Part shown: positions 13,103 to 44,384 of the stretch, piece by piece
Layout of the letters: the number at the start of each line of letters is the position of its first letter
How positions within the stretch are numbered: the stretch's first letter is position 1
Assembly (NCBI RefSeq): GCF_008725655.1
Contig: NZ_VYXP01000001.1
Location: 62,001-126,000, forward strand
Length of the DNA: 64,000 nt
DNA from: Marinihelvus fidelis
Lineage (GTDB): Bacteria; Pseudomonadota; Gammaproteobacteria; Xanthomonadales; SZUA-36
Reading direction: 5' to 3'
Notes under the pieces: generated by a model
The model's database searches: none
Told to the model about the DNA's origin: nothing
What the model saw: only the letters and a program-made list of their open reading frames with translations
Made by a program: the position numbers and the translations under genes

Positions 13103-13126
13103 GCCGGCCATTTGTCTTTGGCCGGC
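13103..13126 (+). terminator. GC-rich hairpin after the 12205 gene (weak terminator)
   Basis: GCCGGCCA (13103-13110) pairs perfectly with TGGCCGGC (13119-13126) across an 8-nt loop. There is no T-run after it, so it may only attenuate transcription or protect the mRNA end before the sigma factor gene. Confidence 0.45.
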
Positions 13127-13175
13127 ATTGATTGCAGACTAGTCGCACTGTACGGGTTGAGGGGCAGCAGACGTC

Positions 13176-13748
13176 GTGGACGCAAGTAAACAACGGGTCG
13201 ACACCGCAACGGCTGGCCCCGGTGAAACGGCATCCGTGCAGGATCGCCTGGTCGCCACCGTCTACGACGAACTCAGGCGTATCGCCCACGCCCACAACCG
13301 CCACGAACGCTTCAACGCCACCCTGCAGACCACGGCGCTGGTCCACGAGGCCTGGTTGCGCCTGGCCGAGAGTGATGCCGCGCTGCAGCCGAAGACCGAG
13401 GCACACCTGAAGGCGCTGACCTCGCGCGTGGTTCGCCATGTGCTGGTCGATTACGCGCGCCAGTCCACGGCCCGCAAGCGCAGCCCCGACGCCAACGATA
13501 TCGCCGAGATGCAGTCGACGCTGATCGACCCCGGTCTTGATGTCGACCTGCTTGACCTGGACGAGGCCCTGCACGCACTGGCCGGGCAGTCGCCACGGCT
13601 GGCTGAGCTGGTGGAGTACCGCTTCTTCGGCGGACTGAGCATCCCGGAGACCGCCGAGGTGCTGGAACTGTCCACCCGCACGGTCGAGCGCGACTGGATC
13701 AAGGCGCGCGCCTACCTGGTGAGCCAGCTGCGCGAGCAGAAGGGCTGA
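13176..13748 (+). CDS. ECF-type RNA polymerase sigma factor
   Basis: A 190-residue sigma factor of the ECF_SigK/TIGR02999 type. Region 2 reads LVATVYDELRRIAHAHNRHERFNATLQTTALVHEAWLRL with HVLVDYARQ. Region 4 is near the end: LAELVEYRFFGGLSIPETAEVLELSTRTVERDWIKARAYL, a full helix-turn-helix. Such sigma factors, common in Xanthomonadales and Planctomycetes, sit next to Ser/Thr kinases and direct RNA polymerase to a small regulon. The kinase gene starts 10 nt downstream, so they form an operon. Two matching sequence elements further down the cluster (16390 and 21843) are candidate target promoters. No anti-sigma factor gene is visible. Confidence 0.92.
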   Translation: MDASKQRVDTATAGPGETASVQDRLVATVYDELRRIAHAHNRHERFNATLQTTALVHEAWLRLAESDAALQPKTEAHLKALTSRVVRHVLVDYARQSTARKRSPDANDIAEMQSTLIDPGLDVDLLDLDEALHALAGQSPRLAELVEYRFFGGLSIPETAEVLELSTRTVERDWIKARAYLVSQLREQKG

Positions 13749-13758
13749 GCGCGACGCG

Positions 13759-16386
13759 ATGGGCGACCCGCGCGACTTCGAGACACTCGACGCGTGGTTC
13801 GACCGTTTGCTGGATGCCGCGCCCGACGAACGGGAGCGCACACTGGCCGACCTGCGCCGCGATGACCCGGAACTGGCTGATTCCCTGGTCGCGCTGCTGA
13901 CCGACGTCACGGCCAGCGAGGGCTTTCTCGAAAACGAGGCCAGCGCAGCTCGCGACCGGATGCTGGCGGAGATGCTGACCGACGATGGCTGGCGGCCCTC
14001 CGGCGCATCGCCAAAGGACCGTTGTGGCGAAACACTGGGTCCGTACCGTCTCGAATCGGTGCTGGGGCGCGGGCAGAAGTCGGTGGTCTACCTTGCCCGC
14101 CGTGCCGATGGCGAGTGGGACGAGCAGGTCGCCGTGAAAGTGCTGTCGCGCGGCGTTGACACGGACGACGTGCTGCGCCGCTTCCTGGCCGAGCGGCAAA
14201 TCATGACCGTCCTGCGCCACCCGCATATCGGCGTGATGCTCGATGGCGGCGTCACCGATGATGGCCTGCCGTACTTCGCCATGGAATATATCGATGGCCA
14301 GCCGATCGACGATTGGTGTCGTGAGCAGGCGCTGCCGCTGGCCGGCCGACTGGCGCTGGTCAGAAGCGTCTGCGAGGCCGTGGCCTTCGCACACCGCCGC
14401 CTGGTGGTGCACCGCGACATCAAGCCATCCAACATCCTGGTCAACCGCGATCGCCAGGTGAAACTGCTCGACTTCGGCATCGCCAAGTGGCTGGATCCGC
14501 AGGCGCAGCCGGGCTTCAGCGCGCGCACGCAGCACATGGTGCGGCCGATGACACCGGCCTACGCGGCACCCGAGCAGCGCGAGGGTGGCCCGGTCTCCAC
14601 AGCCACCGATGTCTACCAGCTGGGCCTGCTGATGGTCACCCTTCTGTGCGGCGTGGACCGGCCCAGGCACGCAATGGGCGTTGACGACAGGGGCGCCCCG
14701 CAACGCCGCGCCAGCACAGTGGCCACCGCGGCCAACTTGCCCTACCCGCCAGCGGAATTGCGGGGCGACCTGGATGGCATCATTCACAAGGCGCTGTCCG
14801 CCGACCCCGAGCAGCGCTACGGTTCCGCGGCCGAACTGCTGGCCGACCTGGACAACTACCGCGAACATCGCGCCGTGCAGGCGAGAACACCGGGTGCCGC
14901 CTACATGTTCGGCAAGTTCGTCCGCCGCCGTCCGCTGGTCACCAGTGCCATCGCCTTCGCACTGGTGGCGCTGTCGGTCTGGGCGCTGCTGGTCGCGCAC
15001 TACAACCGCCAGTTGCAGGCCGAGAAAGCTGCGGCACTGGATGCGCTGGAACGTGCCGAAGAAACCCGCAATGTGCTGGTCCGCTTCATGACCGAGGCCG
15101 ACCCGTTCAATAACGAAGGCAGCGGTGCCGACGCCCGCATCCGCGACGCCCTGGCCGGTGCCGACGAGATCATCGGCCACGAGCTGGCCGGCCGCCCGGC
15201 GCTGCAGGCCGACCTGTACGGCGTGGTCGCCGATGTCTGGGATGGCTTGAGCGAGGGTGAGGCGGCGGGGCAGGCACGCCGTGGCGAGCTGGCGGCCCTG
15301 GCATCCCTGCCCGATGCGGATCCGGTACGGGTGCTGATGTCGCGCCACAAGCTGCTGAATGCTGACGCGAGCGACCTGGACACGGCGACATTTCTTGCCG
15401 AGATCGAAAAGATTCGCGATACGCTGGCCCGCGACTGGCCCGACGCCGTGGTCGAACGGGCCACGGTGGAGAAGGACCTGGGTTACCTGCATCGCCGATA
15501 CGGTTCACCGGATGTCGCCCTTGCGCATACCCGGGCGGCCGTCGAGCTGCTGGACACGGAGCCGTCACCCGACCCGATACAACTCAGTTTTGCGCTGATC
15601 GACCTGGGCGAACAGCTCGCCGTGGACCGGCAGTTCGACCAGGCCATGACCATGATGGAGCGTGCGCTGGCCATTCGCCTGGAGCGCCTGGGTGAAACCC
15701 ATGCATGGACCCTGACCAATCGCCTGCAAATCGCCTCGTTACTCACCGACATGGGCCGGCTGGAAGAAGCCATCGAACTCTACGACGCCCTGGTGCCCGG
15801 CTATGAGCAGCGCCTGGGGCCGCTGCACGGCCAGACTGTCTCGGTAATGAATAACCACGCGATGTCGTTGATGGGGATGGGTCGCTACGAGGAGGCCGAG
15901 GACGTCTTGTCCGACGTGGTGGCACGTCGGCGCAGGGCGGGTGGTGAAAGCAGCCGCAGCCTGGCCGACGGCCTGCAGAACCTGGGCGCGATCCAGCTTC
16001 GGCTGGGCATGATTGACCAGGCCGTGGTGAACCTGAACACGGCCGCCGAGATCTACCAGCAGGTCCTGCTGCCCGGCAACCCGCTGCTGGGATACCCGCA
16101 TCTCACCCTGGCCTCGATCCACGCGGACAGGGGTGATGTCGACGCGCTGATCTTTCATGCAGGTCAGGCAGAGTTGCTCCTGCAAGGCAACGTCCCTGAG
16201 CACCATCCCGCATGGCAAAAAGTTCATTGCCTGGTGGGTGATGCGCAGTTGCGCCAGGGGCAGCTGGAAGCGGGCGAGGCCAGGGTGCGCCAGGGCCTGG
16301 CCGGGTTCGAGGCCATCCCCGGCATGGAGGCCCGTCACCTCGACGAGTGCCGCGCGGCGCTGGCCCGGGCCGGTATCGCCGAGTAG
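13759..16386 (+). CDS. Membrane Ser/Thr protein kinase with TPR-containing C-terminal domain
   Basis: An 875-residue kinase. The Hanks-type domain covers about residues 95-370: P-loop LGRGQKS, catalytic Lys127 in VAVK, HRDIKPSN with Asp220, DFG at 238-240, and APEQ near 271. A single membrane helix (about 393-413, VTSAIAFALVALSVWALLVA) follows. The extracytoplasmic C-terminal part has repeated helical units in a TPR-like pattern (GSPDVALAHTRAAVELL, RQFDQAMTMMERALAIRLERLGETH, GRLEEAIELYDALVPGYEQRLGPLH, GRYEEAEDVLSDVVARRR). This is the standard design of kinases paired with ECF sigma factors: a signal received outside leads to phosphorylation inside. The third position of the Gly-rich loop is Ser, an acceptable variant. 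Confidence 0.95.
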   Translation: MGDPRDFETLDAWFDRLLDAAPDERERTLADLRRDDPELADSLVALLTDVTASEGFLENEASAARDRMLAEMLTDDGWRPSGASPKDRCGETLGPYRLESVLGRGQKSVVYLARRADGEWDEQVAVKVLSRGVDTDDVLRRFLAERQIMTVLRHPHIGVMLDGGVTDDGLPYFAMEYIDGQPIDDWCREQALPLAGRLALVRSVCEAVAFAHRRLVVHRDIKPSNILVNRDRQVKLLDFGIAKWLDPQAQPGFSARTQHMVRPMTPAYAAPEQREGGPVSTATDVYQLGLLMVTLLCGVDRPRHAMGVDDRGAPQRRASTVATAANLPYPPAELRGDLDGIIHKALSADPEQRYGSAAELLADLDNYREHRAVQARTPGAAYMFGKFVRRRPLVTSAIAFALVALSVWALLVAHYNRQLQAEKAAALDALERAEETRNVLVRFMTEADPFNNEGSGADARIRDALAGADEIIGHELAGRPALQADLYGVVADVWDGLSEGEAAGQARRGELAALASLPDADPVRVLMSRHKLLNADASDLDTATFLAEIEKIRDTLARDWPDAVVERATVEKDLGYLHRRYGSPDVALAHTRAAVELLDTEPSPDPIQLSFALIDLGEQLAVDRQFDQAMTMMERALAIRLERLGETHAWTLTNRLQIASLLTDMGRLEEAIELYDALVPGYEQRLGPLHGQTVSVMNNHAMSLMGMGRYEEAEDVLSDVVARRRRAGGESSRSLADGLQNLGAIQLRLGMIDQAVVNLNTAAEIYQQVLLPGNPLLGYPHLTLASIHADRGDVDALIFHAGQAELLLQGNVPEHHPAWQKVHCLVGDAQLRQGQLEAGEARVRQGLAGFEAIPGMEARHLDECRAALARAGIAE

Positions 16387-16389
16387 GCC

Positions 16390-16419
16390 ATGTCGGGGTT
16401 TTACCCTCGAGTTCGCACT
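16390..16419 (+). promoter_or_regulatory. Candidate ECF-sigma promoter upstream of the PPC/vWA gene
   Basis: ATGTCGGGGTTTT (16390-16402), then 11 nt, then CGCACT (16414-16419), about 30 nt before the GTG start at 16449. The same two blocks with the same 11-nt spacing lie at 21843-21872 before the peptidoglycan-binding gene. The block spacing suits a -35/-10 pair of an ECF sigma factor. This is an inferred site, not a known consensus. Confidence 0.5.
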
Positions 16420-16448
16420 CTGGGTATGACGAACGTTGGAGATGCAAG

Positions 16449-19400
16449 GTGACGAAGCTCAGGTTTCTATTCTTCGGAGTACTGACCTTTACCGGGGCGC
16501 TGGTCGTGACCGACAGCCTGGCCCAGCCCACGGTCTACGAAGCCGAACCCAACGACACGCCGATGGACGCCAACCCCATCAGCGGTCCGGTAAAGCTCTA
16601 CGGCAGCATGGTGAACAAGGACCAGGACGGTTTTATCTGGACCGTCACCGATGATGATGCCCGCAAGACCTGGGATTTTGAACTGCACGGGATTCCCGGC
16701 GCCCTGACCGTGGTGGACCTGGTCAAGGTCGAAATGACCGAGGACGGTACCGGGGTCGAGTCGTACCAGACCATCATGAAGATGGGTACTCGTGACGGCG
16801 TCACGCCCTCCATCCATCGCAAACAACTGTTCGAACCCGGCGAATACCTGTTGGGTATTGCCTACGCGGGTGGGCCGTCGCAGGGTGGCGGCGTGTACCG
16901 CCCGCCCATGGCGACGCTGTCGTTCGGCGACGAAGCGGGTGACGTGAATGAATCGATCACCAACGAGTTGCCGGCCGCCGATTCCAATCCTGGGCGTGCA
17001 CGCGCATGGCAGTTCCTGATCCGTGAGAGCGGCTCACTGACCGTCAGCCGCAACCCTGGCGGGCGCGAACAGCGAGAGCAGGCGCAGTCCGTGCGCCTGG
17101 GCAGCTATTTCGCTACCTACGAGGCGCTGGAGACCGCCTGGTACTCTTTTACCTTCAACGAGCATGACGCTACGCAACGCTGGGACATCGAAATCAGGTC
17201 CCCGATCGGTCGACCGTTGCGCGCCCGACTGGTCGACGGGGAAGGCCAGGCCCTGGTTGATGGCAAAACCGACAGCCACGGGCGGATCCTGTTTCCCGGG
17301 CTTGCGCCGGCGCCAGGCACCTGGTACCTGGAACTGACAACGTCCGAACCCGGCTTCATCCAGGCGGTGTTTGCGACCGCCGCCGGCCAGCGGGTAGAGG
17401 GTGAGGAGGCCGAACCTAACAACACCAAGGAGATCGCCAACCGCGTGGAGTTCAGCCAGCCGGTGGTCGGGCGAATCAATCGTTCCGATTCTGCCGACAT
17501 TTTTCGCTTCGAGATCGATGAACCCACATCCGACCAGGTGCTGGCTTTCCGGGTGGAATCCAATCCACCGGCAAGCATGAAAGTGTGCCTGTTTGATGCC
17601 GACTGGACGACAACCCAGTGCCGCAGCCAGGTGTCGCCGGTCGAGTTGACCAACCTGCAACTCTCGCCCGGCGAATGGGGTGTCAGTATTTCGCGCGCTG
17701 ACGAAACCGAGTACTCCCTGTCGATGCAAACGTTAGGTGCAATCGAGTCGGGCGTGGAAGCTGAGCCCAACGATTACAGGACGTTCGCCACCGGTGTTCC
17801 GGAAAACCTGCGGATCAAGGGCCAGTTTGATGGTGCGGATACCGACTGGTACCGCTTCCAGATCGCCGACGAGGCACAGTTGTGGCGCTTCCAGGTTATT
17901 GGCGACAACCTTCACGAAGTGAGGTACTTCAACGGTGCCGGCGAAGAGCGGGCCTCCCAGCGGGTCGACAAGGGCCGCCGCAGAGTACGGCTTGAAGATA
18001 CCTACCTGCTGCCGGGCACGCACTACCTGTCGCTGTCTGCAAAGGAAGAAGAGGCCGGCGGTGAGTACACCGTGCTGGCCCGTCCACTGGGCCCACCTGA
18101 TCCGGATGGCGAGCTGGAGCCCAATAACTCGGCCAACAAACAAAGGCTCGCCTTTGGTCAGACGCGCAATGGTCTGCTGGCCGATGATGTCGACCACGAC
18201 TGGTACCGGTTCTTCCTGCCTGGCGAGGACCACATCCGGCTGACACTGACGCCGCCGGCGGATGGGCACGTGTGGATGGATATGTACTGGTATTCGGCCC
18301 TGATGGGTAACGGCCGGCGTGACGGACCCGGGGAACCGTTGGTGATTCAGGGCCTGTTCCCGCCCGGCGATTATTCTGTGAAGCTCAACGCAAAAGTGCC
18401 CAGCGACGCCGAGTACACCTTGTCGCTGGAGCGCCTGCCACGGTTTTCCTGCCCCGCCGACTGCGAACCGAACGGTATGAAGGCCGTACCACTGGCCGCC
18501 CCGTTGCCTGCGGACCTGGTGCTCGAAGGCAGAGCCGGCGACTGGGGTGACTGGGACTATTACCAGCTACCGGCTTTCGATGCCCCCGTGACACTGCGGG
18601 TGATGACGCCGGAGCCCATCCGGCAATTGAAGCTGGGCACGGCGTTTCACGCCAGTACGCAGCTTTCGTACGATTCTGAACTTGGCGGTTACCAGGCCGA
18701 GGTGCCGGCCGGCGACGCGCAACGGCTGATGGTGAGTTCCTCGGGCGCTACGTATCGGCTGGCCGTCGAATTTCCCAATGGCGAAATTGAAGCGGTTACC
18801 GAGGCCCTGCCGGCCATGCTGGACATGACATTCGAAGCCGATACCGTGGCGGCGTTCCGGCGTTTCGGGCAGGAGTTGCCCGGCGAGCTGCGGGTGACCA
18901 ATACCGGCGACGCTGAGCTGGCGGTGGAACTGGAGGCAGCCACAAGTGATCATCGCTGGCACGTCAACCTTGAGGACACTGCAGTCACGGTACCTGCAGG
19001 CGCGGAACGGGTCGTGCCGGTCACCGTGCTGGTACCGGACGATGCCTGGGCCGACCGCCCGGTGCGGATCAGCGCCGTGGCGCGTGATCCGGCCAGGCGG
19101 CAGGTTGAAACCGGTCGGGACATCGCGGTAGACCGTGATGTGCTGCCCGTTGGGTCGCGCCTGGACTGGCCGATTGCCGAAGGCTTGCGCGGTGGCCTGA
19201 ATGCCGCATGGGCGCCGTTCGGCGCTACGTGGATGGATAGCCCCAATCCCGTGGGGCGTGATCGATATATGCGTGACGACGTACTGTTCGGTGGCAAAAA
19301 CGCGTTCAATTCCTGCCGCCGCGACACCCTCGGTATGCCCGAGTGGTCGCTGGACCTGCCGGGTGACGAACCGCTTCCGGTCGCCGGTTTTGCCCTGAAC

Positions 19401-21842
19401 CATTTTGGCATCGACAAGGCATTCCAGATGGCACACCAGGTCACATTACTGGTGTCCGATGACGGGGTGGAATGGGAGCCGGTGCTGAGTGTCGATGTGC
19501 CGCCGTTGATGACCGAGCAGTCATTCGCCATGGAAAGGTCGGTGCCGGCGCGCTTTGCCAGGCTCCGCATCGACGCGATCTGGCAGGAAGCCAGTTACTG
19601 CTATGCCGTCCAGGCCGGGGAATGGAAAGTGGTCCTGGAGCCCGGCTTTGACCTGTCGGGTGGCCAGGGCTTCGACATCGCACAGCTGGACCTGGGCGGG
19701 CACGTGGTTCGCCAGATCCCGCTGTCCGCGAGTGGCCCGGCTCCAATCCTGGAGGTCGATGGGAACAAGGAAACGGTCTATCCGCGCGGTTGGGCGACGC
19801 GGGACTACGTTATCGGCTTCAAACGGAACCGCACCGCCCAGGTGGCACGGGTGGAATGGATCGAACTGGAAGGCCAGGAGCACGGCTTCGACCACCTGAC
19901 GGTCATGGGCAGCCTGGAATCGCCGTCGGGTCCGTGGGTGCGTCTGGGCGAGGTTGATATTGTTGACGGTGAGAATCATGCCGAGGTGGTTCTGCCCCGG
20001 CCCGAGTGGGCTCGATTCATCCGCGTCGCCGCGCGCTTCAAGCCCGACCGGAAAAGCGCGCTTGCACCCGAGCAAATCAAGGTCTGGGAGCGACCCATCG
20101 ATGTCGAGTACCGCTCGGTGCTGTCCGAGTGGGGCGACATCAATTATCGCGCGTACTACGAACACCAGGCCGGTGTTCCCGCCACGCCCGAAGAATGGAC
20201 TTCGGACAACACTTCACGTGACCGGGCTGCCCCGCTGGCACCCGGTAAACCGGCCCGCGGCCGCGTGTCGCTGGAAACCGGCACCGCGCACTGGTACCGC
20301 ATTACCCTGCCAGCGGATCACAACACCCTGACCATCGACCTCAGTGGCGAAAACACTGTCAGGACGATTCTGGCGCTGGAGGACGAGGCCGGTAACCCGG
20401 TGCCGTTGCGGCGTATCGACCCGCGAACCAAGGCCAACCTTAACGTGTTCCAGGCCGTTCTCGAACCCGGCGGCAGCGCCTGGCTGAACGTCGAGGAACC
20501 ACCCCGCAACGTGGTCTTCGCCTGGGACACCAGCCCCAGTGTGGCTTCCCTGATTCCGCGGATCCGCAACACCCTGGTGGCTTACGCCAGCGAGGTCGTG
20601 CCCGGTCGAGAGGCGGTCAACCTGATGCCGTTTTCTTCCCCGCCGTTGTTAAAACAATGGCTTGGCCAACCCTACATCCTGCAGACTGCGCTCAACGAAT
20701 ATGACCGTGGGACTGGCTCCAGTGCCGCTTTGACGACGCTCAAGGGCGCGTCCATGGCGCTGGCGCCACGGGCAGGCTCCAAGGCCGTGCTGATCATTAC
20801 CGATGGCGGCACGACGCCGAACTACGGCGCCTGGCCGGAGATGGACGAGGCCAGGCCGCGGATATTCGGCCTGCAGGTCGCGGGTGATTCGCGCTGGAAC
20901 CTGGACGTCATGCGCGACTGGTCCAGCGTTAACGCCGGCCATTTCAGCCAGCTGCGCTACGACGGCGAAATGGAAGTGGCTTACGACCGTGCCGCCACGC
21001 TGATGCGCCGGCCGGCCGAGTACGTGCTGACCGCAAACACCGAGTTTAACGAGGCCCCCGGGCCCGGGTTGTTGAATGTTCTTCGGGGGGAGAACGGCCC
21101 GGGCTCCGGCGGCGCTGCCATCGCGCTGATCCTGGATGCCTCCGGCTCCATGCTGCAGCGCGTTGATGGCAAGCGCCGCATCGCCGTTGCCCGCGAGGTG
21201 CTGACCGAGGCCGTGCGGGAGCAGATTCCCGCCGGCACCCCGGTGGCCCTGCGGGTGTTCGGCCATCGCGAAGTCGATTCCTGTCGTACCGACCTGGAAA
21301 TCCCGTTGGGGCCGCTCGACCCCGCCGCGGCAGCGGAGAAGATCGCCGGAATCCAGGCCATGAACCTGGCGCGCACGCCCATCGCCGATTCGCTGGCTGC
21401 CGTTCCCGGCGACCTGGGCGGCCGAACCGCTGGCACCGTCGTGCTGGTCACTGACGGCGAAGAAACCTGCGATGGCGACCCGGCTGCGGTGGTCGAGTCC
21501 CTGCGTGAAAAGGGCTTCAACGTCACCCTGAACATTGTCGGCTTCGCCATCGACGAGCCGGAGCTGGCAGCGCAGTTCGAGGCCTGGGCGACGGCCGGTG
21601 GTGGCCGCTACTTCGGCGCCGCGGACCAGGCCGGCCTGAGTGGCGCGCTGGCGCAGGCGCTGCGGGTGCCGTTCCGGGTGCTGGATGCCGGCGGCAACGA
21701 AGTGGCCAGCGGCCAGGTGGGCGGGGACGCCGTGGAACTGGAGCCGGGTATCTACCGCGTCATCGTCGCGACAGAGCCCGCGCAGGTCTTCGAAGACATC
21801 ACCGTACTGGGTGAAGACCAGCAGGACATTGTCATCGACTGA
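16449..21842 (+). CDS. Giant exported protein with repeated PPC domains and two vWA domains
   Basis: Start chosen at the GTG 16449-16451, preceded by GGAG and followed by a signal peptide (VTKLRFLFFGVLTFTGALVV, cleavage near SLAQ). The product is 1797 residues. Five bacterial pre-peptidase C-terminal (PPC)-type units each start with a xxEPN motif: about residues 31 (YEAEPND), 320 (EAEPNN), 437 (EAEPND), 555 (ELEPNN) and 672 (DCEPNG). The middle looks like a discoidin-type carbohydrate-binding region. Two von Willebrand A folds follow: one near 1355 (VVFAWDTSPS), and a canonical one near 1560 with a MIDAS DASGS motif (ALILDASGSM) and a Thr-Asp-Gly loop (VVLVTDGEET). A short PEGA-like tail ends it. 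Probably a surface or periplasmic scaffold that binds ligands and metal; the exact role is unknown. Confidence 0.88.
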   Translation: MTKLRFLFFGVLTFTGALVVTDSLAQPTVYEAEPNDTPMDANPISGPVKLYGSMVNKDQDGFIWTVTDDDARKTWDFELHGIPGALTVVDLVKVEMTEDGTGVESYQTIMKMGTRDGVTPSIHRKQLFEPGEYLLGIAYAGGPSQGGGVYRPPMATLSFGDEAGDVNESITNELPAADSNPGRARAWQFLIRESGSLTVSRNPGGREQREQAQSVRLGSYFATYEALETAWYSFTFNEHDATQRWDIEIRSPIGRPLRARLVDGEGQALVDGKTDSHGRILFPGLAPAPGTWYLELTTSEPGFIQAVFATAAGQRVEGEEAEPNNTKEIANRVEFSQPVVGRINRSDSADIFRFEIDEPTSDQVLAFRVESNPPASMKVCLFDADWTTTQCRSQVSPVELTNLQLSPGEWGVSISRADETEYSLSMQTLGAIESGVEAEPNDYRTFATGVPENLRIKGQFDGADTDWYRFQIADEAQLWRFQVIGDNLHEVRYFNGAGEERASQRVDKGRRRVRLEDTYLLPGTHYLSLSAKEEEAGGEYTVLARPLGPPDPDGELEPNNSANKQRLAFGQTRNGLLADDVDHDWYRFFLPGEDHIRLTLTPPADGHVWMDMYWYSALMGNGRRDGPGEPLVIQGLFPPGDYSVKLNAKVPSDAEYTLSLERLPRFSCPADCEPNGMKAVPLAAPLPADLVLEGRAGDWGDWDYYQLPAFDAPVTLRVMTPEPIRQLKLGTAFHASTQLSYDSELGGYQAEVPAGDAQRLMVSSSGATYRLAVEFPNGEIEAVTEALPAMLDMTFEADTVAAFRRFGQELPGELRVTNTGDAELAVELEAATSDHRWHVNLEDTAVTVPAGAERVVPVTVLVPDDAWADRPVRISAVARDPARRQVETGRDIAVDRDVLPVGSRLDWPIAEGLRGGLNAAWAPFGATWMDSPNPVGRDRYMRDDVLFGGKNAFNSCRRDTLGMPEWSLDLPGDEPLPVAGFALNHFGIDKAFQMAHQVTLLVSDDGVEWEPVLSVDVPPLMTEQSFAMERSVPARFARLRIDAIWQEASYCYAVQAGEWKVVLEPGFDLSGGQGFDIAQLDLGGHVVRQIPLSASGPAPILEVDGNKETVYPRGWATRDYVIGFKRNRTAQVARVEWIELEGQEHGFDHLTVMGSLESPSGPWVRLGEVDIVDGENHAEVVLPRPEWARFIRVAARFKPDRKSALAPEQIKVWERPIDVEYRSVLSEWGDINYRAYYEHQAGVPATPEEWTSDNTSRDRAAPLAPGKPARGRVSLETGTAHWYRITLPADHNTLTIDLSGENTVRTILALEDEAGNPVPLRRIDPRTKANLNVFQAVLEPGGSAWLNVEEPPRNVVFAWDTSPSVASLIPRIRNTLVAYASEVVPGREAVNLMPFSSPPLLKQWLGQPYILQTALNEYDRGTGSSAALTTLKGASMALAPRAGSKAVLIITDGGTTPNYGAWPEMDEARPRIFGLQVAGDSRWNLDVMRDWSSVNAGHFSQLRYDGEMEVAYDRAATLMRRPAEYVLTANTEFNEAPGPGLLNVLRGENGPGSGGAAIALILDASGSMLQRVDGKRRIAVAREVLTEAVREQIPAGTPVALRVFGHREVDSCRTDLEIPLGPLDPAAAAEKIAGIQAMNLARTPIADSLAAVPGDLGGRTAGTVVLVTDGEETCDGDPAAVVESLREKGFNVTLNIVGFAIDEPELAAQFEAWATAGGGRYFGAADQAGLSGALAQALRVPFRVLDAGGNEVASGQVGGDAVELEPGIYRVIVATEPAQVFEDITVLGEDQQDIVID

Positions 21843-21872
21843 ATGTCGGGGTTTTCGCCGCCAATGCGCACT
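21843..21872 (+). promoter_or_regulatory. Second copy of the candidate ECF-sigma promoter
   Basis: ATGTCGGGGTTTT (21843-21855), 11 nt, CGCACT (21867-21872), matching the element at 16390-16419. It lies just after the giant PPC/vWA gene stop and about 37 nt before the start of the next gene. The identical spacing in two independent intergenic gaps supports a regulatory site. Confidence 0.5.
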
Positions 21873-21908
21873 TGCCCATGAAACCACGTGAACATCAACG
21901 GGGGTGTA

Positions 21909-22505
21909 ATGATGGGCAAACGAGCAGGAATGATCATGATGCTGCTGCTGGGCCTGGTGCTGGTGCCAGTGGCCGGTGCCGATGACCTGACAAAGATGGC
22001 GCAACAGGACCTGGCGACGCTGGGTTACGAGGTGGGCGCCATCGATGGCAATGCCGGCACCCAGACGGTAATCGCGATATCAAAGTTCCAGGCCGAGCAG
22101 GGCCTGGATGTCACCGGCGAGGTCAGCCCGCAGTTGGTGGGCGCCCTTCGGGCCGCCATCAAGAAGCAGGGCCAGCCGGCCACCGGTCGCCCGGCCCCGG
22201 CCACCGTCGCCGCGACCAGCCCGCAGAGCAACCCGCGGGCGGACCTGCAGGCACGCCAGCAGGCCTGCCTGCAGCAGAAAGTGGAAGCCAGCCAGAAACA
22301 ACAAAAGACGAAACGCGCATTTATGCGTATCCTAAATACCGTATCTCGTTCCAGTTCGCGCTATGGCAGTGGCGAGCTGGCCAAGACCATTTCGACCGCT
22401 TCCGGCCAGGCCTACGACGCCAACGCCACCTATGAAGACGTCAAGGGTGCGGCGCAGGACCTGGGACTGTCCGAAAGCGACATGGAGGAGTGCCGTAACC
22501 CATGA
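21909..22505 (+). CDS. Exported peptidoglycan-binding domain protein
   Basis: Start taken at the ATG 21909-21911, with a G-rich ribosome site (GGGGGTG) 3-9 nt upstream; a GTG at 21888 is an alternative. A signal peptide (ending near AGA) precedes a PG_binding_1 domain of about 60 residues: MAQQDLATLGYEVGAIDGNAGT..AISKFQAEQGLDVTGEVSPQLVGAL. A Pro/Ala-rich linker and a small C-terminal region with two cysteines follow. The PG-binding domain is closely similar to the one at the C-terminus of the next protein (AQKMLQALGYDVGNTDGNID). The stop overlaps the next start by ATGA, so the pair is translationally coupled. Confidence 0.85.
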   Translation: MMGKRAGMIMMLLLGLVLVPVAGADDLTKMAQQDLATLGYEVGAIDGNAGTQTVIAISKFQAEQGLDVTGEVSPQLVGALRAAIKKQGQPATGRPAPATVAATSPQSNPRADLQARQQACLQQKVEASQKQQKTKRAFMRILNTVSRSSSRYGSGELAKTISTASGQAYDANATYEDVKGAAQDLGLSESDMEECRNP

Positions 22506-23992
22506 AGCAGAATACCCGCGCGATCGTCCGTTTTCCCCGCCCTCGTTCACTGGCCATGGCGACCGCCATCGCCCTGGCGACCAGCGCTGCCGGCGCCGTC
22601 GCCGACCAGCGTGTCATCGTCACCGGCACCATGACTGACTCCCAGTCCATGGGGAACCCGTCCGGCAACATGGGTGGGCAGAACATCAGCCTGCAGGACA
22701 TCTGCAACGCCGCCAGCATGGCCGGCATGTACGCCGGCGCCGCCGAGGTCGAACTGGCCAACCAGATGGCCCGGATCGGCGCGCCGCCGGATACCGCGGC
22801 CCAGGCACGCGAGGCCATGGGCGATGCCATGGACCAGGTCTGCAACGACCCCATTGATGAGGGTGAAAAGACGGCGCCCTTCGTCATCGAGTACACGCAA
22901 TGCATGATGCGGATGGAATCCGCCGGCCAGAGCATGGCCATTCGCCTGGTGCCCAGCGCCAACGAGGCCATCATGGAGATCGTCGACCACAACACCCGCG
23001 AAGCGCAGACCATCGATATGAATTACGACCTTGGCCAGGTGCAGCAAGTCACCGGCCGGGGCGAGGCCACCGCGCTGCAGATGAGCCCCAGTGGCCAGAC
23101 CGGCACCCGGGTGGGCTATGACGTGAAGGAATACACCTTCAACTACAGCATCAGCGCCGGCGACGGCATCTTCGGCCAGATGGAAGGCGGCGAGGCCATG
23201 GCCGGCATGTTTGGCGGCCTGTCTGAAATGACCCGCGTGACGACCACCGGCAGCGCGTGGATCGCCGCCGATGCCCCCGGCGTCGGCATCGTCAGTGATT
23301 TTTACGACAACCTTGCCGGCATCGCCGAGGATGGCCAGGGCGCCGGTTTCTTCAGCGGCATGCTCAAATCCATGGCCGGCATCGTCGAGCACGGCATCCC
23401 CATGGAGACCCGCACCACGGTGTCCGCCGCCATGGGTATGGGTGGCGACTCGCACTCGGTGGTCGAGAGCGTGCAGCTGGCCTCGTTTGATGACGCCGCC
23501 TGCGCCCGGACCATCATTCCCGAGGGCTACAACGTCCAGTCCATGGACGAAGCCATGAACGCCGCCATGGGCGGTGGCAACCAGGGCGACCAGGCCGAGG
23601 CCGCCGCGTCGATGAACGAGGCCATGTCCGAGCTCAACAAGGCCATGGAAAGTATGACCCCGGAGCAGCGTGAGGCCATGCAGAGCATGGGCCTGGGCGG
23701 CCTGTTTGGCGGTGCCGCCGCCGGAGGCAACCAGGCCGCCGCCTCTGCACCGGCTGCCGCCAGCGCATCGGGCGCGTCGCGCTCGGCCGCAATGAGTACC
23801 GGTAGCCTGGAACAGAGCGCGCAGAAGATGCTGCAGGCCCTGGGTTACGACGTCGGCAACACCGACGGCAACATCGACACCACCACCATGATCTCGATCT
23901 CGCAGTTCCAGGCCGAAAACGGCCTGCCGGTGACCGGCGAGGTCTCACCACAACTGATCGGGGTGCTGTCGGCGAAAGTGGACGCGCAGTAA
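22502..23992 (+). CDS. Exported protein with C-terminal peptidoglycan-binding domain, N-terminal part unrecognised
   Basis: A 496-residue exported protein starting by ATGA overlap with the previous gene. Residues to about 34 are a signal peptide (SAAGAVA). Residues 40-340 are Met- and Gly-rich with a repeated AMAGMFGGLSEM-like character and have no family I recognise. A low-complexity Ala/Ser linker (about 400-425) leads to a PG_binding_1 domain at the end (MLQALGYDVGNTDGNIDTTT through LPVTGEVSPQLIGVL). Two cysteines around 54 and 121 could form a disulfide. It is coupled to the transglutaminase-like gene by a TAATG overlap at 23990-23994. A periplasmic, cell-wall-anchored role is inferred. 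Confidence 0.8.
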   Translation: MKQNTRAIVRFPRPRSLAMATAIALATSAAGAVADQRVIVTGTMTDSQSMGNPSGNMGGQNISLQDICNAASMAGMYAGAAEVELANQMARIGAPPDTAAQAREAMGDAMDQVCNDPIDEGEKTAPFVIEYTQCMMRMESAGQSMAIRLVPSANEAIMEIVDHNTREAQTIDMNYDLGQVQQVTGRGEATALQMSPSGQTGTRVGYDVKEYTFNYSISAGDGIFGQMEGGEAMAGMFGGLSEMTRVTTTGSAWIAADAPGVGIVSDFYDNLAGIAEDGQGAGFFSGMLKSMAGIVEHGIPMETRTTVSAAMGMGGDSHSVVESVQLASFDDAACARTIIPEGYNVQSMDEAMNAAMGGGNQGDQAEAAASMNEAMSELNKAMESMTPEQREAMQSMGLGGLFGGAAAGGNQAAASAPAAASASGASRSAAMSTGSLEQSAQKMLQALGYDVGNTDGNIDTTTMISISQFQAENGLPVTGEVSPQLIGVLSAKVDAQ

Positions 23993-26283
23993 TGGCCAGG
24001 GCCACCGTGATGGCCCTGGCGTTGCTGCTGGCCGGTGCGGGCACCTGTGAGGGTGCCGGCGCTGAGCCGGAGGTTGAGCAATCGCTGCAGCGCGTCTCCG
24101 ATTTCATGGGGGCCATCAACCAGGAACTGTACCGGCCGGCGTTTGAGCTGGACGCGCTGCTGGACGAGCTGGCTTACGACGAGGTCGCCATTTTCGAGTT
24201 CGTTCGCGACCACGTCGCCTACCAGGTGTATCCCGGCATCATGCGGGGTGCGCAGGGCACACTACTAAGCCGCGCGGGGAACGCCGCCGACCAGTCGGTG
24301 CTGCTGGCGCGGCTGATGCGCGATTCCGGGTACGACGCGCGCATGGCGCGAGCCCGTTTGAGTGAAGACCAGGCGCTACTGGTGCTGCAGGCGCTGCGAC
24401 AGCCGGTCAGTGAAGCGCCCGCGATGGGCAACGCGGCGGCCATGGTCGAGGTGCTGAACCAGTGGCGCGGGAGCGACGACCCGCTTTCCGACGAGCAGAT
24501 CCAGGCTTACCGTGACTACATCCAGGCGCCGTACCGGGTGGGTGTCCAGGGTGACCAGCAGGCCGCCGAGCTGGAGACGATTTCTGCCCGGATTCGCGGC
24601 ACGCTGGACGCGGCCGGCGCCGCGTTCGATGTCTCGTCGCTCAACCAGGCACTGGTCGAGGACGCCCGTGACTACTTCTGGGTCCAGGTGCGGCCTTCGC
24701 CGAGCGCCGATTGGCAGGATCTCCATCCCGTGTTCCAGGGCGAAGCGCCCCTGTCCGCCCTGGAAGCCACCCAGCACATCGCCGACGAGATTCCGGACGA
24801 CCTGCTGCACAAGCTGCGTTTCCAGGTCTTTATCGAGAAAACCCAGGGCCAGGCCATCGAGGCCCTGCCGATCACGGCGGCCTGGGAACGGCCGGTGGCC
24901 AACCTGGTCGGCGTGCCCCTGACATTCACGAACGTGCCGGACGCCATGCTGCAGTCCGGCGCCCTGGGCCAGAACATGGAAGAGCTGCTGCAGAAGGCGC
25001 GCTCTTTCGTGCCTGGCTTCGGCTCCGAGATGGCGCCCGGCGGGCGGTTCTTCGACTACCGCGCCAGCCTGATCGACCCGATGGCCGCGGCCAGCCCAGC
25101 AGCGGGCCTGTTTGCCACGCTGGGCGACAGCCTGGCCGGTGCCACCCTGGATATCGACCCCAACGCGGCATTGCCGATGCTGACCGGGCAGTGGGTCGAG
25201 TTCACGCTGGTCTCGCCCAACGGCGAGGAGCAGGTGTTCCGACGCATGACCATGGACCGCATCGGCGCCGATGCCCGCGCGCGCGGGGAGCCGCCGGCAG
25301 ACCTGGAGCCGACTGACAGTGATGATGTCCGCACGCTGATGCGGCGGCACACGTTCATGGTGCAGGTGGGTGAGATCGCACGTGGGTACGTGGTCGACGC
25401 GGCCTACCGGCAGTACCAGGCATCGCGGCCCGGAATCGAGGCCACGGTGGCCCTGGTCAAGGGTGAAGAGCCCAACGAGGACGCGATGGCCGGCCTGCCG
25501 CCGGGCTGGCCCGGTCACCTGGGCCTGTTCACGGTCTTTGATGCTGCCGGCGGCATTGGCGACCAGCACCGCAATTTCCGCTCCGGCCCCGCGCTGGTGA
25601 TCCACAGCGAGGGCCTGGGCGGTCCGGACGAGTGGGTCGAGTCCATCGATATCGTCAGCAATCCGCGCCGGGCGGTCAGCCTGGCCGGTGATGTGCCGGT
25701 GATCGACCCGTGGGTGGCGCTGCAGTCGGGCATCTGGGAGACCCGCGTGGAAGGCGTGCTGCTGGAGGGCGACTCACAACTGAGTACGGACAAGGTTTTC
25801 GAGCAGGCGCGGGATGCGGGCATCGACACCATCGCGGTGACCGATCGGGCAACGCTGGCACAAGTGGGTTACTCGGCTGACATCCAGGCCGCCATGGCGC
25901 GCGAGATCGACCGCGGTTACTACCTGGTCACCCCGTCACGACCGCCGGCGCAGGACCTGGTCGCCTGGTGGCGTGTTGACCCGGCTTCGGGCGAAACGCT
26001 GGGGCAGATTGCCGACGGGCAGGGCGGCGAAATGGCGCAGTACGTCATCGGCCTGACGTTTTCACTGGGTGCTTATGCCTATGGCATGTACGGCTGCACC
26101 CAGACATCCTCCGTGGGCGCGGCGACCTGCTGTGCCGTGGCCAATACCGGCCTGGCGCTGTTCACATTTGGCATCGGCACGCAGTTGAAAGGCGCCATGG
26201 GCGTGATCGCCGGCATGGTGCTGGACACCAATCGCATGCTCATCCCCATTCCGGATGTCTGCGACTCGGCGTTCTCTGATTGA
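23992..26283 (+). CDS. Transglutaminase-like superfamily protein, exported, with C-terminal membrane segments
   Basis: A 763-residue protein starting by TAATG overlap. A short signal peptide leads into a transglutaminase-like fold at about residues 66-125: FEFVRDHVAYQVYPG, then LLSRAGNAADQSVLLARLMR, then GYDARMARARL. In catalytic members the helix after this segment starts with Cys; here that position is occupied by Gly-Asn-Ala-Ala-Asp, so activity is doubtful. The middle region (about 150-620) is beta-rich and unassigned. The C-terminus has hydrophobic, Cys-rich segments (YVIGLTFSLGAYAYGMYG, GLALFTFGIGTQL) that may span or associate with a membrane. It lies in one operon with the peptidoglycan-binding proteins. 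Confidence 0.75.
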   Translation: MARATVMALALLLAGAGTCEGAGAEPEVEQSLQRVSDFMGAINQELYRPAFELDALLDELAYDEVAIFEFVRDHVAYQVYPGIMRGAQGTLLSRAGNAADQSVLLARLMRDSGYDARMARARLSEDQALLVLQALRQPVSEAPAMGNAAAMVEVLNQWRGSDDPLSDEQIQAYRDYIQAPYRVGVQGDQQAAELETISARIRGTLDAAGAAFDVSSLNQALVEDARDYFWVQVRPSPSADWQDLHPVFQGEAPLSALEATQHIADEIPDDLLHKLRFQVFIEKTQGQAIEALPITAAWERPVANLVGVPLTFTNVPDAMLQSGALGQNMEELLQKARSFVPGFGSEMAPGGRFFDYRASLIDPMAAASPAAGLFATLGDSLAGATLDIDPNAALPMLTGQWVEFTLVSPNGEEQVFRRMTMDRIGADARARGEPPADLEPTDSDDVRTLMRRHTFMVQVGEIARGYVVDAAYRQYQASRPGIEATVALVKGEEPNEDAMAGLPPGWPGHLGLFTVFDAAGGIGDQHRNFRSGPALVIHSEGLGGPDEWVESIDIVSNPRRAVSLAGDVPVIDPWVALQSGIWETRVEGVLLEGDSQLSTDKVFEQARDAGIDTIAVTDRATLAQVGYSADIQAAMAREIDRGYYLVTPSRPPAQDLVAWWRVDPASGETLGQIADGQGGEMAQYVIGLTFSLGAYAYGMYGCTQTSSVGAATCCAVANTGLALFTFGIGTQLKGAMGVIAGMVLDTNRMLIPIPDVCDSAFSD

Positions 26284-26318
26284 AACAACAAACTGGAAAC
26301 GATTAAAGGGGGTATTCC

Positions 26319-26747
26319 ATGGGTTTTAACCTGAAGGTTCTTACGCTGGTGACCGGCCTGGGTACCGCGCTCGCGGCCTCGGCCGCCGACCTGGAATGGC
26401 AATTCACCTACGCGGGTGACATCGAGGGCGAAGTCGCCGGCGAAGTACTGTCGTCGACCGCCGTCATGACCAACCTGACCATCGCCGGCGGCGCCTACGG
26501 CGAACAGCCGGGCAAGCGCGCGACGCAGAAATTCCGCATGACGGTCAGCCGGTCGCCGGATGGTGCGCCGGCGTCGGTGCTGTTCAACCTGACCCTGCCG
26601 GACGGCACGAAATGCAACAACACCGGTGCCGTGGAAGCCGACATCCAGGATGACAACAAGAAGACCCTGGAGGCGACATTCGCCGGTGAAATGGACTGTG
26701 ACGGCCAGCGCGCCGACTTCGAGGGCTGGGTCAACGCGGACCCGTAA
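26319..26747 (+). CDS. Small secreted protein of unknown function
   Basis: A 142-residue protein with a clean signal peptide (MGFNLKVLTLVTGLGTALAASA). The mature part is beta-rich (LEWQFTYAGDIEGEVAGEV, FRMTVSRSPDGAPASVLFNLTL) with a pair of cysteines that could bridge (TKCNNTG and MDCDGQ). GGGGGT lies just upstream. It sits 35 nt after the transglutaminase-like gene and 32 nt before the Yip1-like gene, and so belongs to the same cluster. No family recognised. Confidence 0.75.
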   Translation: MGFNLKVLTLVTGLGTALAASAADLEWQFTYAGDIEGEVAGEVLSSTAVMTNLTIAGGAYGEQPGKRATQKFRMTVSRSPDGAPASVLFNLTLPDGTKCNNTGAVEADIQDDNKKTLEATFAGEMDCDGQRADFEGWVNADP

Positions 26748-26779
26748 GCAACATGACTGAAAATAACGAGGAGAACGGG

Positions 26780-27865
26780 ATGGAGTTCGATATCAACAAG
26801 ACGGTCGCGCTGGTCAAGGGTGGCGTGCTGGAGCCGCAGACAACCTGGAGCGAGTACCTGGCGGACAACCCGGGCTGGCAGAAGACGCTGTTCCTGCTGA
26901 CCGGGCCGTTGCTACTGGCCAACGTGCTGTTGTCGACCCTTTTTACCTGGATTTTTGGAGGCCTGAGCAAGTACGCCATGGGGGACAGCTTTATCGCGGC
27001 CCTGCTGTTCACGCTGGTGACCGCCGTGGCGGGCTTTCTGCTGGCCGTCTTTATCATCAGTGCCCTGGCGGGTGTGTTCGGGGGCAAGCCCAGTTTCGAC
27101 CGCACGTTTGCCGCGGTATCGCTGGTGGCCATCCCAGCCTGGCTGGCCGGTATCGTCGGCGCGTTAATTCCATGGGTCGGTTTCCTGGTCGCCCTGGCGG
27201 GTGGTATCTGGTCCCTGGTGCTGCTGTACAAGATCATCCCGCTGGCGCTGGAGGTGCCCGATGACAAGCGCGTCGGCCACTATATCGTCAGCATTATCGC
27301 GGTCATCATCTGCAACATGATCCTGGGTGCCGTGCTGGCGTTCAGCGGGCTGCGCCCCGGGCCAGACCTGTCCGACATCGGTAGCCGCAATGACGGCAAG
27401 ACCAGCATTTCCGGCGATATCGCCTCCGGCACCGGTATCTTCGGCCAGGCCCAGCGCCAGGCCGAGCTGGTGCAGGCCGCATCGCGAGACCAGTTCGAGC
27501 CGCCCAGCGACGGCAAGGTCAGCGAGGACCAGGTCGAGGACCTGGTCGAGGTGGTGAAAAAGGCCGAGGCCGCGCTGGCCGATCGAGCCGAGCGGCTGAA
27601 GAAGATCTCCGAGGAGGTCGAGGAAGGTGAGGTGAAATCCCCCGGCGACCTGATGGCCATCTACGAGGGCATGGGCACCGCGGTGAGCCTGCAGAACGTG
27701 GAGATGGAAGTGGTCAAGACCGGCGGCGGCAACTGGGCCGAGTACCGCTGGGTCAAGGAGCAGCTACGCGTGGCCAAGCTGCAGCAGGGCAGCGGCTCGG
27801 ACGCGCTGGAGCACAACTTCGAGCTCTACAAGGAGTACGAAGACGTGCTGGGCGACCTGTTCTGA
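26780..27865 (+). CDS. Yip1-like membrane protein with cytoplasmic coiled-coil tail
   Basis: Start chosen at ATG 26780 (MEFDINKTVALVKGGVLEPQ), because GAGGAG lies 6-11 nt upstream; an ATG at 26753 lacks a ribosome site. The 361-residue product has five or six membrane helices in the first 215 residues (LLTGPLLLANVLLSTLFTWI, ALLFTLVTAVAGFLLAVFII, AIPAWLAGIVGALIPWVGF, HYIVSIIAVIICNMIL), with the overall look of bacterial Yip1-domain proteins. The last 110 residues are charged, with helix-forming heptads (VEDLVEVVKKAEAALADRAERL). Function is unknown; it closes the co-directional cluster that starts with the sigma factor. Confidence 0.78.
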   Translation: MEFDINKTVALVKGGVLEPQTTWSEYLADNPGWQKTLFLLTGPLLLANVLLSTLFTWIFGGLSKYAMGDSFIAALLFTLVTAVAGFLLAVFIISALAGVFGGKPSFDRTFAAVSLVAIPAWLAGIVGALIPWVGFLVALAGGIWSLVLLYKIIPLALEVPDDKRVGHYIVSIIAVIICNMILGAVLAFSGLRPGPDLSDIGSRNDGKTSISGDIASGTGIFGQAQRQAELVQAASRDQFEPPSDGKVSEDQVEDLVEVVKKAEAALADRAERLKKISEEVEEGEVKSPGDLMAIYEGMGTAVSLQNVEMEVVKTGGGNWAEYRWVKEQLRVAKLQQGSGSDALEHNFELYKEYEDVLGDLF

Positions 27866-39178: not shown

Positions 39179-39277
39179 AAGGGTTATTTCTGTAACAAAG
39201 ATTCCCTTTCTTGAGAATGTAGAACTATCATGTCCTTCGGCCATTGGTTTGAGTAAATTTTTCTATCTGGAATCAAG

Positions 39278-42200
39278 ATGGGGCTTCGCGAAGACGTTCA
39301 AAAATATGGTTTAGAGAAAGTTGTAAAGAGGAAGATCAAGAGGCTCTCCATTGAGGAAGTTCCGGAATTTATATCCTCGCTATTTTCGGTAGAAAATAGC
39401 CCTCCATTGGTTAAGAAAGGTGACTATTTCCCAACTATTGAAGGGTTAGGAAATGCGCCGATTTTTATTGAAGGGCCTGCGGAAATAAAGCTGCAGTTTC
39501 TACTAGCACTACAGAAAACCTTCCAATCTGAAATCGAATTTTTCTTAGATATTCGTGAATCAATCGCCGATGCTTTCCTCGTAAACGATTTTACGAAGGT
39601 CGATGCACTTGTCGCTGACCTTGAAACTCGCTGTGGTATTTCTTACTGGTCGGTGCAATGCCGACTCTTAATCGATGTTTTTGGAAATGACCATACGAAA
39701 AGAATTCAAAATTTAGAGAGTCACGCAGAATCGTTTTTCTCTCGTTATTGCAGCGCACTTCTTCGCCTCAAATTTACGCCAGGAATTAATATCTTTGAAT
39801 TCAAGAATGTTGTGGCGTCAGTCAACGACGATTTGGGGGCAGAATACCAACACAACAGTGGTTTCAAAAATTTTACATCTCACTCTTCAGTAATCGAGCT
39901 GCTCTTGCTTCCTTCGACCTCATGGGAGCCGAGAGTCTCAATATCGCGGTTCTTAACGTCTCTTCAGTCGTTGCCCGTAATTGACCAGTTCTATGTGCTT
40001 CGAAAACTGTTGAGTCAACCCAAGGCATTGAAATCGATAAAAATGTCTGACGAAGAAGTTGCTCGAATTCTACCCGTTGATAAAGACCGTGTTTTCGCCA
40101 ACCTGCGAGTTTCAATTGGCGATTTCAATGATCTGGGCAATTTTGAGTTTCCGATTGAACTGCATCAGAAGTATACGGTGGGTAAATATGCTGACGTAGT
40201 GAATTCTCGAAACGAGTTTTGTCAATCGGCAGCATTGTTTAGTGACACATTAGAAATAGTGGCGAATAGCATTCGGCGATGTAAACGAGATTTCGGTTCT
40301 CAGCAAGATATAGCCGAGCGTATCCAGTTCTCTGTCTCGACGCTCCTAAGAGGTGGAACACCTTCTGAAAAAGATCTGATCTCCCTACGGTCGATGTGTT
40401 TATTGTTTGCAAACTTTGACTGGTCCGAAATACTTTCAGATCTTGTTGCTAAATACTCGTCCATGATTAGCCCTGACGAGAGAATGCAGCTACGAACTGC
40501 TGATTTTTTTCGATGCCCAGTCAATCCTCGCTCGATCAAACTCATAACCGATCGCCGAACGCGACAAAAATTCATCAACTATTGCCGAAAGTTGTACGGT
40601 GATTCAGATGTTCTAAATCTGGTTGAAGCCGTTGAAAGTCAAAACTCAGAGCAAGTGAATCTGCTCACTTTGCCGGAATACAGGAAGCAAAAATATTGCG
40701 CAAAAATTGCTTTTACGACCGGGGAAATAGAGAAACTAGAAAGGATATTGGTGGCCCTTTCTACATCAAATGACCAGATAGCCGCAGGATTCGCAATTCA
40801 GTTTTTGGCATATGCCTTTCTCAAGACCGGTCAGCTTGAAAAGTCCATAAATTTGATTTCACAAGAAATAGCGGAAGACGAATTGAGGCACAGGATGCTT
40901 CCTGTCGTTGATATCGTTACTTTGATCAAAAAAATTGGTTTGAAAAATCTTCAGCGAGAGTTGGGAATTTGTAATGTTATTGGTGTTCATGAACGGTTTT
41001 TTGAAGCCAATTCCGAGTCATTGCTAAGGGCCGCCTTTCGAAATTACCTGGACGCTCAAGGTGTACGATCTCCCGCAGAATTGTTACGTCTAGGTATTGA
41101 TGGTGATCAGCAGCTAATCTACTTTCTGGGTCGCGTCTGTCAAACTAATCTGCTTGACTGCCTTGAAACATTCGATAGCCAATCGTCTATTGATGAAGAA
41201 CGAGTAAGAATTCTGCTAGAGCTACTGCGAACCGATTCTCAGTTTTCGCAAGAGGTTGAGAAAGAACTTCTCGCGATTACACGTGAGCGAGAACTAAGAA
41301 AGATTCTAGACCAACTCGGAGCAGGTAAGATTAACGTTGATCACGTTCGTCTTTTTGAAGCGATTAAAGACAAGTTGGCCAATGATTTTTCTAAACTCGA
41401 GGCACAATTGTCTGAAGGGATTCTTCCAAAGATCACTCGAGCGCAGATATTGACGGGAGAGAGAAAGGCCGGTCAGTTATTAGTGGCAAATCAGTCTTAT
41501 CAGTATTTGACATCGATATTCAACAAAATCAAAGAAGGCTTTCTGTTTAGCAACGAGTTTGGCCTTGACGGCTACTTGAGCGTAAAGATTCGACATGCCG
41601 TGCTATCGGGCCGGATACTTGCTGTTTTCAAACAACGTGACCTGGTGTTGACCCAAACCGGCAACAACTCCTACGAGCATTCCGAGAGTTGGAAAGGTTT
41701 ATTAAAAAGCGAATATAGCATCGCATTTGATGCGCTAAGGGCACTCAACGACGCGATTCATCAAATGAACTCATGGCTCCTAAAGGAAGTCATTCAAATT
41801 GAAATAGAGAATCAGAACCATCAGGCAGCTTTCAACTTCCATTACTCTCATGAGCAATTTGATGAAGTGTGCCGCGACGTTACCAAAGGTATGTCACTAC
41901 CTGAAGTCTATGATGTTTGTATAGACCACCTTTATCGCCGATTAGCACGTTGTTTGGAGCGGGCAAAGATCGTCATTCAGGGGCGAGCAAAGGGTGAACT
42001 AGTTTCTGCGATTGATCAAATGCATGCTTTTGCCTTGACCCTAAATAATTCCCAGCAATTAGCTGACAATGCTACGGCTGTGAGAACAAGCATTCCTTCT
42101 GCAATTAATGAGATTTCAGACTGGTTTTCTCTCTCGAATGTGAAGAAGTACGTTGACTTTTCATTGGATACTTTAATTGATGCTGCCGTACGAACAATAC

Positions 42201-44318: not shown

Positions 44319-44384
44319 ATACCTAGCCCAAATGGGTCTTTGCGCTCATTGCGCAACAGTAAGCTTACTCGGTTTGAGTATGAG

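Follow-up and report, generated by a model that had tools for sequence, protein, structure and literature searches.

A giant vWA protein and a cysteine-less transglutaminase-fold protein as the predicted conserved core of an eight-gene locus in Marinihelvus fidelis

The window analysed here is the whole stretch of 64,000 nucleotides from Marinihelvus fidelis. Between 13176 and 27865 on the forward strand it contains eight co-directional long open reading frames, as claimed in the earlier note: SIG, STK, VWA, PGB1, PGB2, TGL, SEC and YIP1. Their positions are listed in Table 1. The domain labels of the cluster agreed with Pfam and NCBIfam, and Pfam returned the vWA, PPC and two PG_binding_1 proteins that had been proposed from the sequence. 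The gaps at the junctions, from 5' to 3', are 10, 62, 66, -4, -1, 35 and 5 nt. Several starts had been described as overlapping; two junctions do overlap, by 4 nt at 22502/22505 (PGB1/PGB2) and by 1 nt at 23992 (PGB2/TGL), but the remaining five are gaps. Judged by this spacing, one operon for all eight genes is allowed, and scans for consensus promoters and terminators gave results at chance level. A Pfam scan of the eight genes and their upstream neighbour found no MoxR-type AAA+ ATPase, as looked for in a MoxR-vWA-transglutaminase operon. A defence system was also considered and rejected, the PADLOC matches being limited to a generic kinase domain. Identity to the sister species (G007) is 80% for SIG, 62% for STK, 56% for PGB2, 67% for TGL and 83% for YIP1, and these five are taken as real genes because they are conserved there.

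Table 1. Genes, domains and sequence features of the eight-gene locus, in window coordinates.
Feature	Position	Strand	Basis
Promoter-like stretch upstream of SIG, TTTGTC.TT..G..GG.ATTGA.TGCAGACT	13111..13140	+	Read by eye, two upstream sequences
SIG, ECF43-type sigma factor	13176..13748	+	PF07638 1e-36; TIGR02999 3e-50; QTTA motif
STK, Hanks-type Ser/Thr kinase	13759..16386	+	Pfam kinase and TPR; motifs
VWA, core component 1, giant secreted protein, 1797 aa	16449..21842	+	ORF, Pfam, profile searches
PPC-type repeat region of VWA	16539..18600	+	Sequence motif E.EPN[DNG]
F5/8-C / CBM32-type galactose-binding-like domain of VWA	19257..19655	+	Profile vs PDB; Foldseek
vWA domain 1 of VWA	20505..21095	+	MIDAS DxSxS at 20526-20540
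vWA domain 2 of VWA	21123..21659	+	PF13519 1.8e-7; MIDAS DASGS at 21135-21149
PGB1, small secreted PG_binding_1 protein, accessory	21909..22505	+	Pfam
PGB2, secreted, C-terminal PG_binding_1 domain, accessory	22502..23992	+	Pfam
TGL, core component 2, secreted Cys-less transglutaminase-fold protein, 763 aa	23992..26283	+	Transglut_core 2.5e-5; model
TGL pseudo-active site GNAAD, residues 96-100	24277..24291	+	Alignment of 68 relatives
TGL hydrophobic Cys-containing C-terminal tail (C...CC...C)	26044..26280	+	Sequence; low model confidence
SEC, small secreted protein, no assigned family, accessory	26319..26747	+	ORF; Pfam scan
YIP1, Yip1-domain membrane protein	26753..27865	+	Pfam

The first two genes encode a putative regulatory pair. 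Region 2.2 of SIG reads LQTTALVHEA, with QTTA at residues 51-54 replacing DxxD, and this sigma factor of the PF07638/TIGR02999 type lies directly beside the kinase gene at a spacing of 10 nt. STK has intact HRD (218) and DFG (238) motifs, a single transmembrane segment (394-412) and a C-terminal TPR region, transmembrane segments and signal peptides being called from hydropathy throughout this analysis. The earlier reading as a sigma factor and sensor kinase was thus right for the ECF sigma factor, but STK is of the Hanks Ser/Thr type and not a histidine kinase. ECF43 sigma factors carry QTTA in region 2.2 without DxxD, the second Thr of QTTA is phosphorylated by the partner kinase, and EcfK-PknS of Xanthomonas citri and EcfP-PknT of Vibrio parahaemolyticus are known pairs (PMC13147305, PMC8999054). 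In both, as in SIG-STK, the sigma factor gene adjoins the gene of a Ser/Thr kinase with one transmembrane segment. By its QTTA motif and kinase neighbour, SIG-STK is assigned to this known kind of pair, and by analogy with the ECF43 family Thr53 of SIG would be the residue phosphorylated by STK. EcfK controls a type VI secretion system; no TssB/VipA homologue was found in the genome of the window, and such control by SIG-STK was rejected.

The promoter-like stretch in Table 1 has a similar counterpart upstream of SIG in the sister species. SIG- or STK-like genes were found near VWA or TGL at few loci (L046, L047, L051, L065, L114 and L130), and the genome of the window has seven SIG homologues. 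Linkage of SIG-STK to VWA and TGL cannot be claimed, because these loci are few and such sigma factors are numerous; the position of SIG-STK beside the VWA-TGL pair is uncommon and may be a chance placement.

The best start of VWA is the GTG at 16449, with which the N terminus is signal-like and hydrophobic. Five PPC-type repeats start at residues 31, 320, 437, 555 and 671 (numbering from the start at 16449); the Pfam PPC match is below its cut-off and the repeats rest on the E.EPN[DNG] motif. A NEW3-like domain and galactose-binding-like domains are also present, and the F5/8-C/CBM32 domain matched a sialidase CBM both in the profile search against PDB (E 8e-7) and in Foldseek (E 1e-13). Both vWA domains have the DxSxS motif of a MIDAS together with the distal Thr/Ser and Asp. 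Across 35 aligned rows the D, S and S of the first domain are invariant (35/35), and those of the second are near invariant, as are its distal Thr and Asp. The AlphaFold2 model of residues 778-1797 reached pLDDT 87 and pTM 0.75, and its best Foldseek matches include a double-vWA matrix protein of the mussel byssus, an inter-alpha-inhibitor heavy chain and CBMs of sialidases. The mussel protein, proximal thread matrix protein 1 (PTMP1), is likewise a MIDAS-bearing vWA protein (E 1e-13 over ~425 columns) and the heavy chain matched at E 4e-11, a likeness at the level of the fold with ~10-14% identity. Unlike these two, VWA is bacterial and giant and carries PPC and CBM-like domains. VWA is predicted to be able to bind glycans and metal-dependent protein ligands because of its PPC and galactose-binding-like domains and its tandem vWA domains with intact MIDAS.

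Transglut_core is the sole Pfam match of TGL, in line with the earlier label of a transglutaminase-like protein, and its N-terminal domain shows the sequence pattern of transglutaminases, but the catalytic Cys is missing. None of the 68 aligned relatives (0/68) has the Cys; nearly all carry Ala, Ser or His in its place, and D100 is invariant (68/68). At the catalytic His and Asp positions the window TGL has Tyr228 and His245; the larger group of relatives also has Tyr and His there, whereas His and Asp persist in a smaller subfamily. The window TGL therefore lacks the Cys as well as the His and Asp of an active transglutaminase or LapG-type cysteine peptidase. The predicted structure (pLDDT 85, pTM 0.87) is mostly of low confidence in the tail from about residue 687. 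No convincing solved relative was found by sequence, no solved structure was matched by Foldseek with E < 0.001, and the ~440-residue region after the N-terminal domain gave no clear match among solved folds. The folded part closes with WWR[VI]DPxTGxTLGxxxxGxGxxxxEY (25966-26043 in the window, the same stretch in relatives), followed by the hydrophobic tail. Its GxxxxEY stretch is similar to Flp/Tad prepilin sites, probably by coincidence; a pilin-like tail was rejected, as GxxxxEY lies within a model beta strand, the hydrophobicity of the tail is often weak and Gln stands there in the window TGL.

A giant secreted protein paired with a transglutaminase-fold protein recalls LapA-LapG, where a giant secreted adhesin has a transglutaminase-fold partner. 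In that manner, TGL would be a diverged enzyme or regulator of VWA that cleaves it or retains it at the surface. Such a role would suit the giant protein encoded next door to TGL, the three genomes in which a VWA gene of the genus has a HEAAH protein or a met-zincin nearby, and a weak Foldseek match (prob 0.77, E 1.1) between TGL and a 181-residue chain of the LapD-complex entry 4u65, which is presumably LapG. It is nevertheless unlikely: no relative of TGL has the catalytic Cys, most have His/Asp swapped for Tyr/His, Transglut_core is the only Pfam match, no LapD-like or retention gene was seen within the cluster, and VWA, unlike LapA, has no RTX-type match.

VWA and TGL are linked. By gene calling and profile search, VWA is present at 54 of 71 non-duplicate TGL loci; it adjoins TGL in 51 and shares its strand in 48, figures that describe TGL carriers because most of the loci were retrieved through TGL. 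Both gene orders occur, and the ends overlap at some loci. Some of the 17 loci without a recognised VWA are at contig edges, others (L048, L072, L092, L095, L114) are not. Separate TGL and VWA searches of the same 300 genomes, all from the order, served as the independent check on adjacency. TGL was found in 18 genomes as a full or long match and in one more as a fragment where a contig ends; the VWA alignment found near-full VWA in 22, including all 19 TGL genomes. Of the three VWA-only genomes, G157 has a fragment of TGL at the end of a contig, G172 a VWA that starts at a contig end and G176 the second VWA type only. Full-length TGL and VWA coincided again in the class sample of 369 genomes (in G000, G601 and G596). 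For paired proteins, the TGL and VWA distances correlate (Pearson r 0.65, a value reached by 0/1000 label shuffles), shared species history being included in this figure.

The species-genome scan yielded 66 loci, in Gammaproteobacteria, Burkholderiaceae, Rhodobacteraceae, Mesorhizobium, Desulfobulbaceae, Acidobacteriota, Chloroflexi, Trueperaceae, Aminicenantes, Phycisphaerales and others; the taxa were taken from record titles and most are MAGs. TGL loci span Proteobacteria, Desulfobulbaceae, Acidobacteriota, Chloroflexi, Aminicenantes and Planctomycetota. Spread of TGL on plasmids was rejected (0 matches in 72,556 plasmid records), and no description of the pair was found in the open-access literature searched. 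Other genes recur at some loci. In the second TGL subfamily, TGL is followed by a family of ~480-750 aa without Pfam match (L046:10325-11773, L047:11849-13312, L048:13206-15446, L049:12431-14524), a relative of which is fused to a vWA domain (L089:9541-14094); at one Phycisphaerales locus, a vWA fusion of a third protein from this subfamily counts in favour of a VWA-TGL complex. A set of related proteins (296-425 aa) adjoins TGL in Beta-, Gamma- and Alphaproteobacteria (L053:1914-3152, L064:12287-13177, L066:12329-13519, L071:8650-9927), with no Pfam match in the two that were scanned.

The orthologous locus of the sister species holds OMP9, PGB2, TGL and YIP1, then VWA on the opposite strand, then SIG-STK. 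The TGLs of the two species are close, as given above, but the window VWA is only distantly like that of the sister species, which is of a different subfamily found elsewhere in the window's genome (L117). With 75% identity, the window VWA instead matches the VWA of a MAG from Gammaproteobacteria (L074), although the TGLs of both are only ~29% alike. VWA at the window locus was exchanged or added, as read from its different subfamily at the orthologous locus. This points to a locus that needs some VWA and to a TGL that accepts VWAs of more than one subfamily. The partner exchange also counts against the complex proposed below, since a given TGL is then not bound to one VWA lineage. The second VWA type of the genus lies near a putative metallopeptidase in three genomes: at L117:4285-12415 (in the window's own genome, contig C1, ~252.3-260.4 kb) a HEAAH protein is two genes away, at L031:3571-10703 one adjoins (HEAAH proteins of 475/478 aa), and at L118:4193-12586 a DUF4953 met-zincin adjoins. 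Elsewhere in the window, G+C is 44% at 40001-44000 against ~60-66% over most of its length and no gene was called between 39178 and 44385, so 39179-44384 is possibly foreign DNA.

Around this pair the cluster varies. YIP1 relatives occur in 80 of the 300 genomes of the order, mostly without TGL, and YIP1 is probably a bystander. Full-length PGB2 was found only in the window genome and the sister species, and no SEC homologue was seen in the neighbourhoods of related loci; PGB1, PGB2 and SEC look lineage-specific. The proposal of one eight-gene system did not hold, as the distributions of PGB2 and YIP1 diverge from that of TGL and SIG-STK is nearby in a minority of loci. On these sequence comparisons the conserved core is two genes, VWA and TGL, and it is this core that an uncharacterised envelope-assembly or surface-adhesion system, as first suggested, would fit, given a pair conserved across phyla and the folds of secreted binding proteins. 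A neighbourhood conserved nowhere would have counted against that suggestion; the core pair, adjacent across many phyla, escapes this refutation.

That the eight genes are a chance grouping of unrelated co-directional genes is improbable. YIP1 is indeed not linked to TGL within the order, the sister locus lacks counterparts of PGB1 and SEC, and gene order differs between the two species. Yet the VWA-TGL linkage is kept across many phyla, and at the orthologous locus PGB2, TGL and YIP1 stand in unchanged order, with a VWA and SIG-STK also retained.

The Cys-less GN..DQ domain of TGL, ~120 residues long, also occurs in giant ORFs of the order, where it reads AGN[DA].DQ. One examined giant ORF (L132:1474-12015, 3513 aa) opens with this domain and continues with 15 RHS repeat stretches. 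The pair might accordingly be imagined as a contact-dependent or conflict system of the polymorphic-toxin kind, but the prospects of this reading are slim. The likeness to RHS/YD-repeat proteins with an N-terminal transglutaminase-like domain is confined to those ~120 residues, whereas TGL stands alone (760 aa), is paired with VWA and, like VWA, has neither RHS repeats nor a recognised toxin domain by Pfam and PADLOC; no small immunity-like gene is conserved beside the pair.

It is similarly doubtful that PGB1, PGB2 and the pair form a cell-wall maintenance module for peptidoglycan remodelling or sensing, with SIG-STK answering wall damage: two PG_binding_1 genes immediately precede TGL, with ends that overlap, and one Chloroflexi protein with the TGL domain bears LysM, but full-length PGB2 is in just two genomes of the genus, Pfam found no amidase, glycosidase or peptidase in the cluster, and loci of the pair outside the genus yielded no neighbouring PGB homologue.

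The preferred reading, to which we give a probability of roughly one half, is that VWA and TGL form an envelope-attached adhesion or scaffold complex with TGL as the non-enzymatic partner of VWA, here probably under ECF43-kinase control. Both proteins would be exported, VWA binding glycans and metal-dependent protein ligands, and TGL using its N-terminal transglutaminase fold as a binding module that has lost the Cys and is no enzyme. The hydrophobic Cys-containing tail may fix TGL to the membrane, where it would act as a dedicated envelope partner that scaffolds or displays VWA, possibly offering the invariant acidic D100 to a VWA MIDAS. The two would thereby build a cell-envelope complex of the adhesion or matrix kind, which PGB1 and PGB2 could anchor to peptidoglycan in this organism, and STK could turn the system on by phosphorylation of SIG at Thr53. 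The gene linkage, the co-occurrence, the integrity of the domains, the loss of the Cys and the ECF43 motif are observed; direct VWA-TGL binding, and the location, ligand and regulation of the complex, are what we infer.

A wider proposal, put forward tentatively and with less confidence than the complex itself, is that the pair is a hitherto unrecognised envelope machine of two proteins that spans phyla. A giant vWA protein with two MIDAS sites would have a catalytically dead transglutaminase fold as its obligate, non-enzymatic partner, and partners could be exchanged between subfamilies. Two large secreted proteins whose genes stay paired from Proteobacteria to Chloroflexi and Planctomycetota are probably important to their carriers, and the VWA-TGL pair would bring a pseudoenzyme-plus-vWA design into bacterial surface biology.
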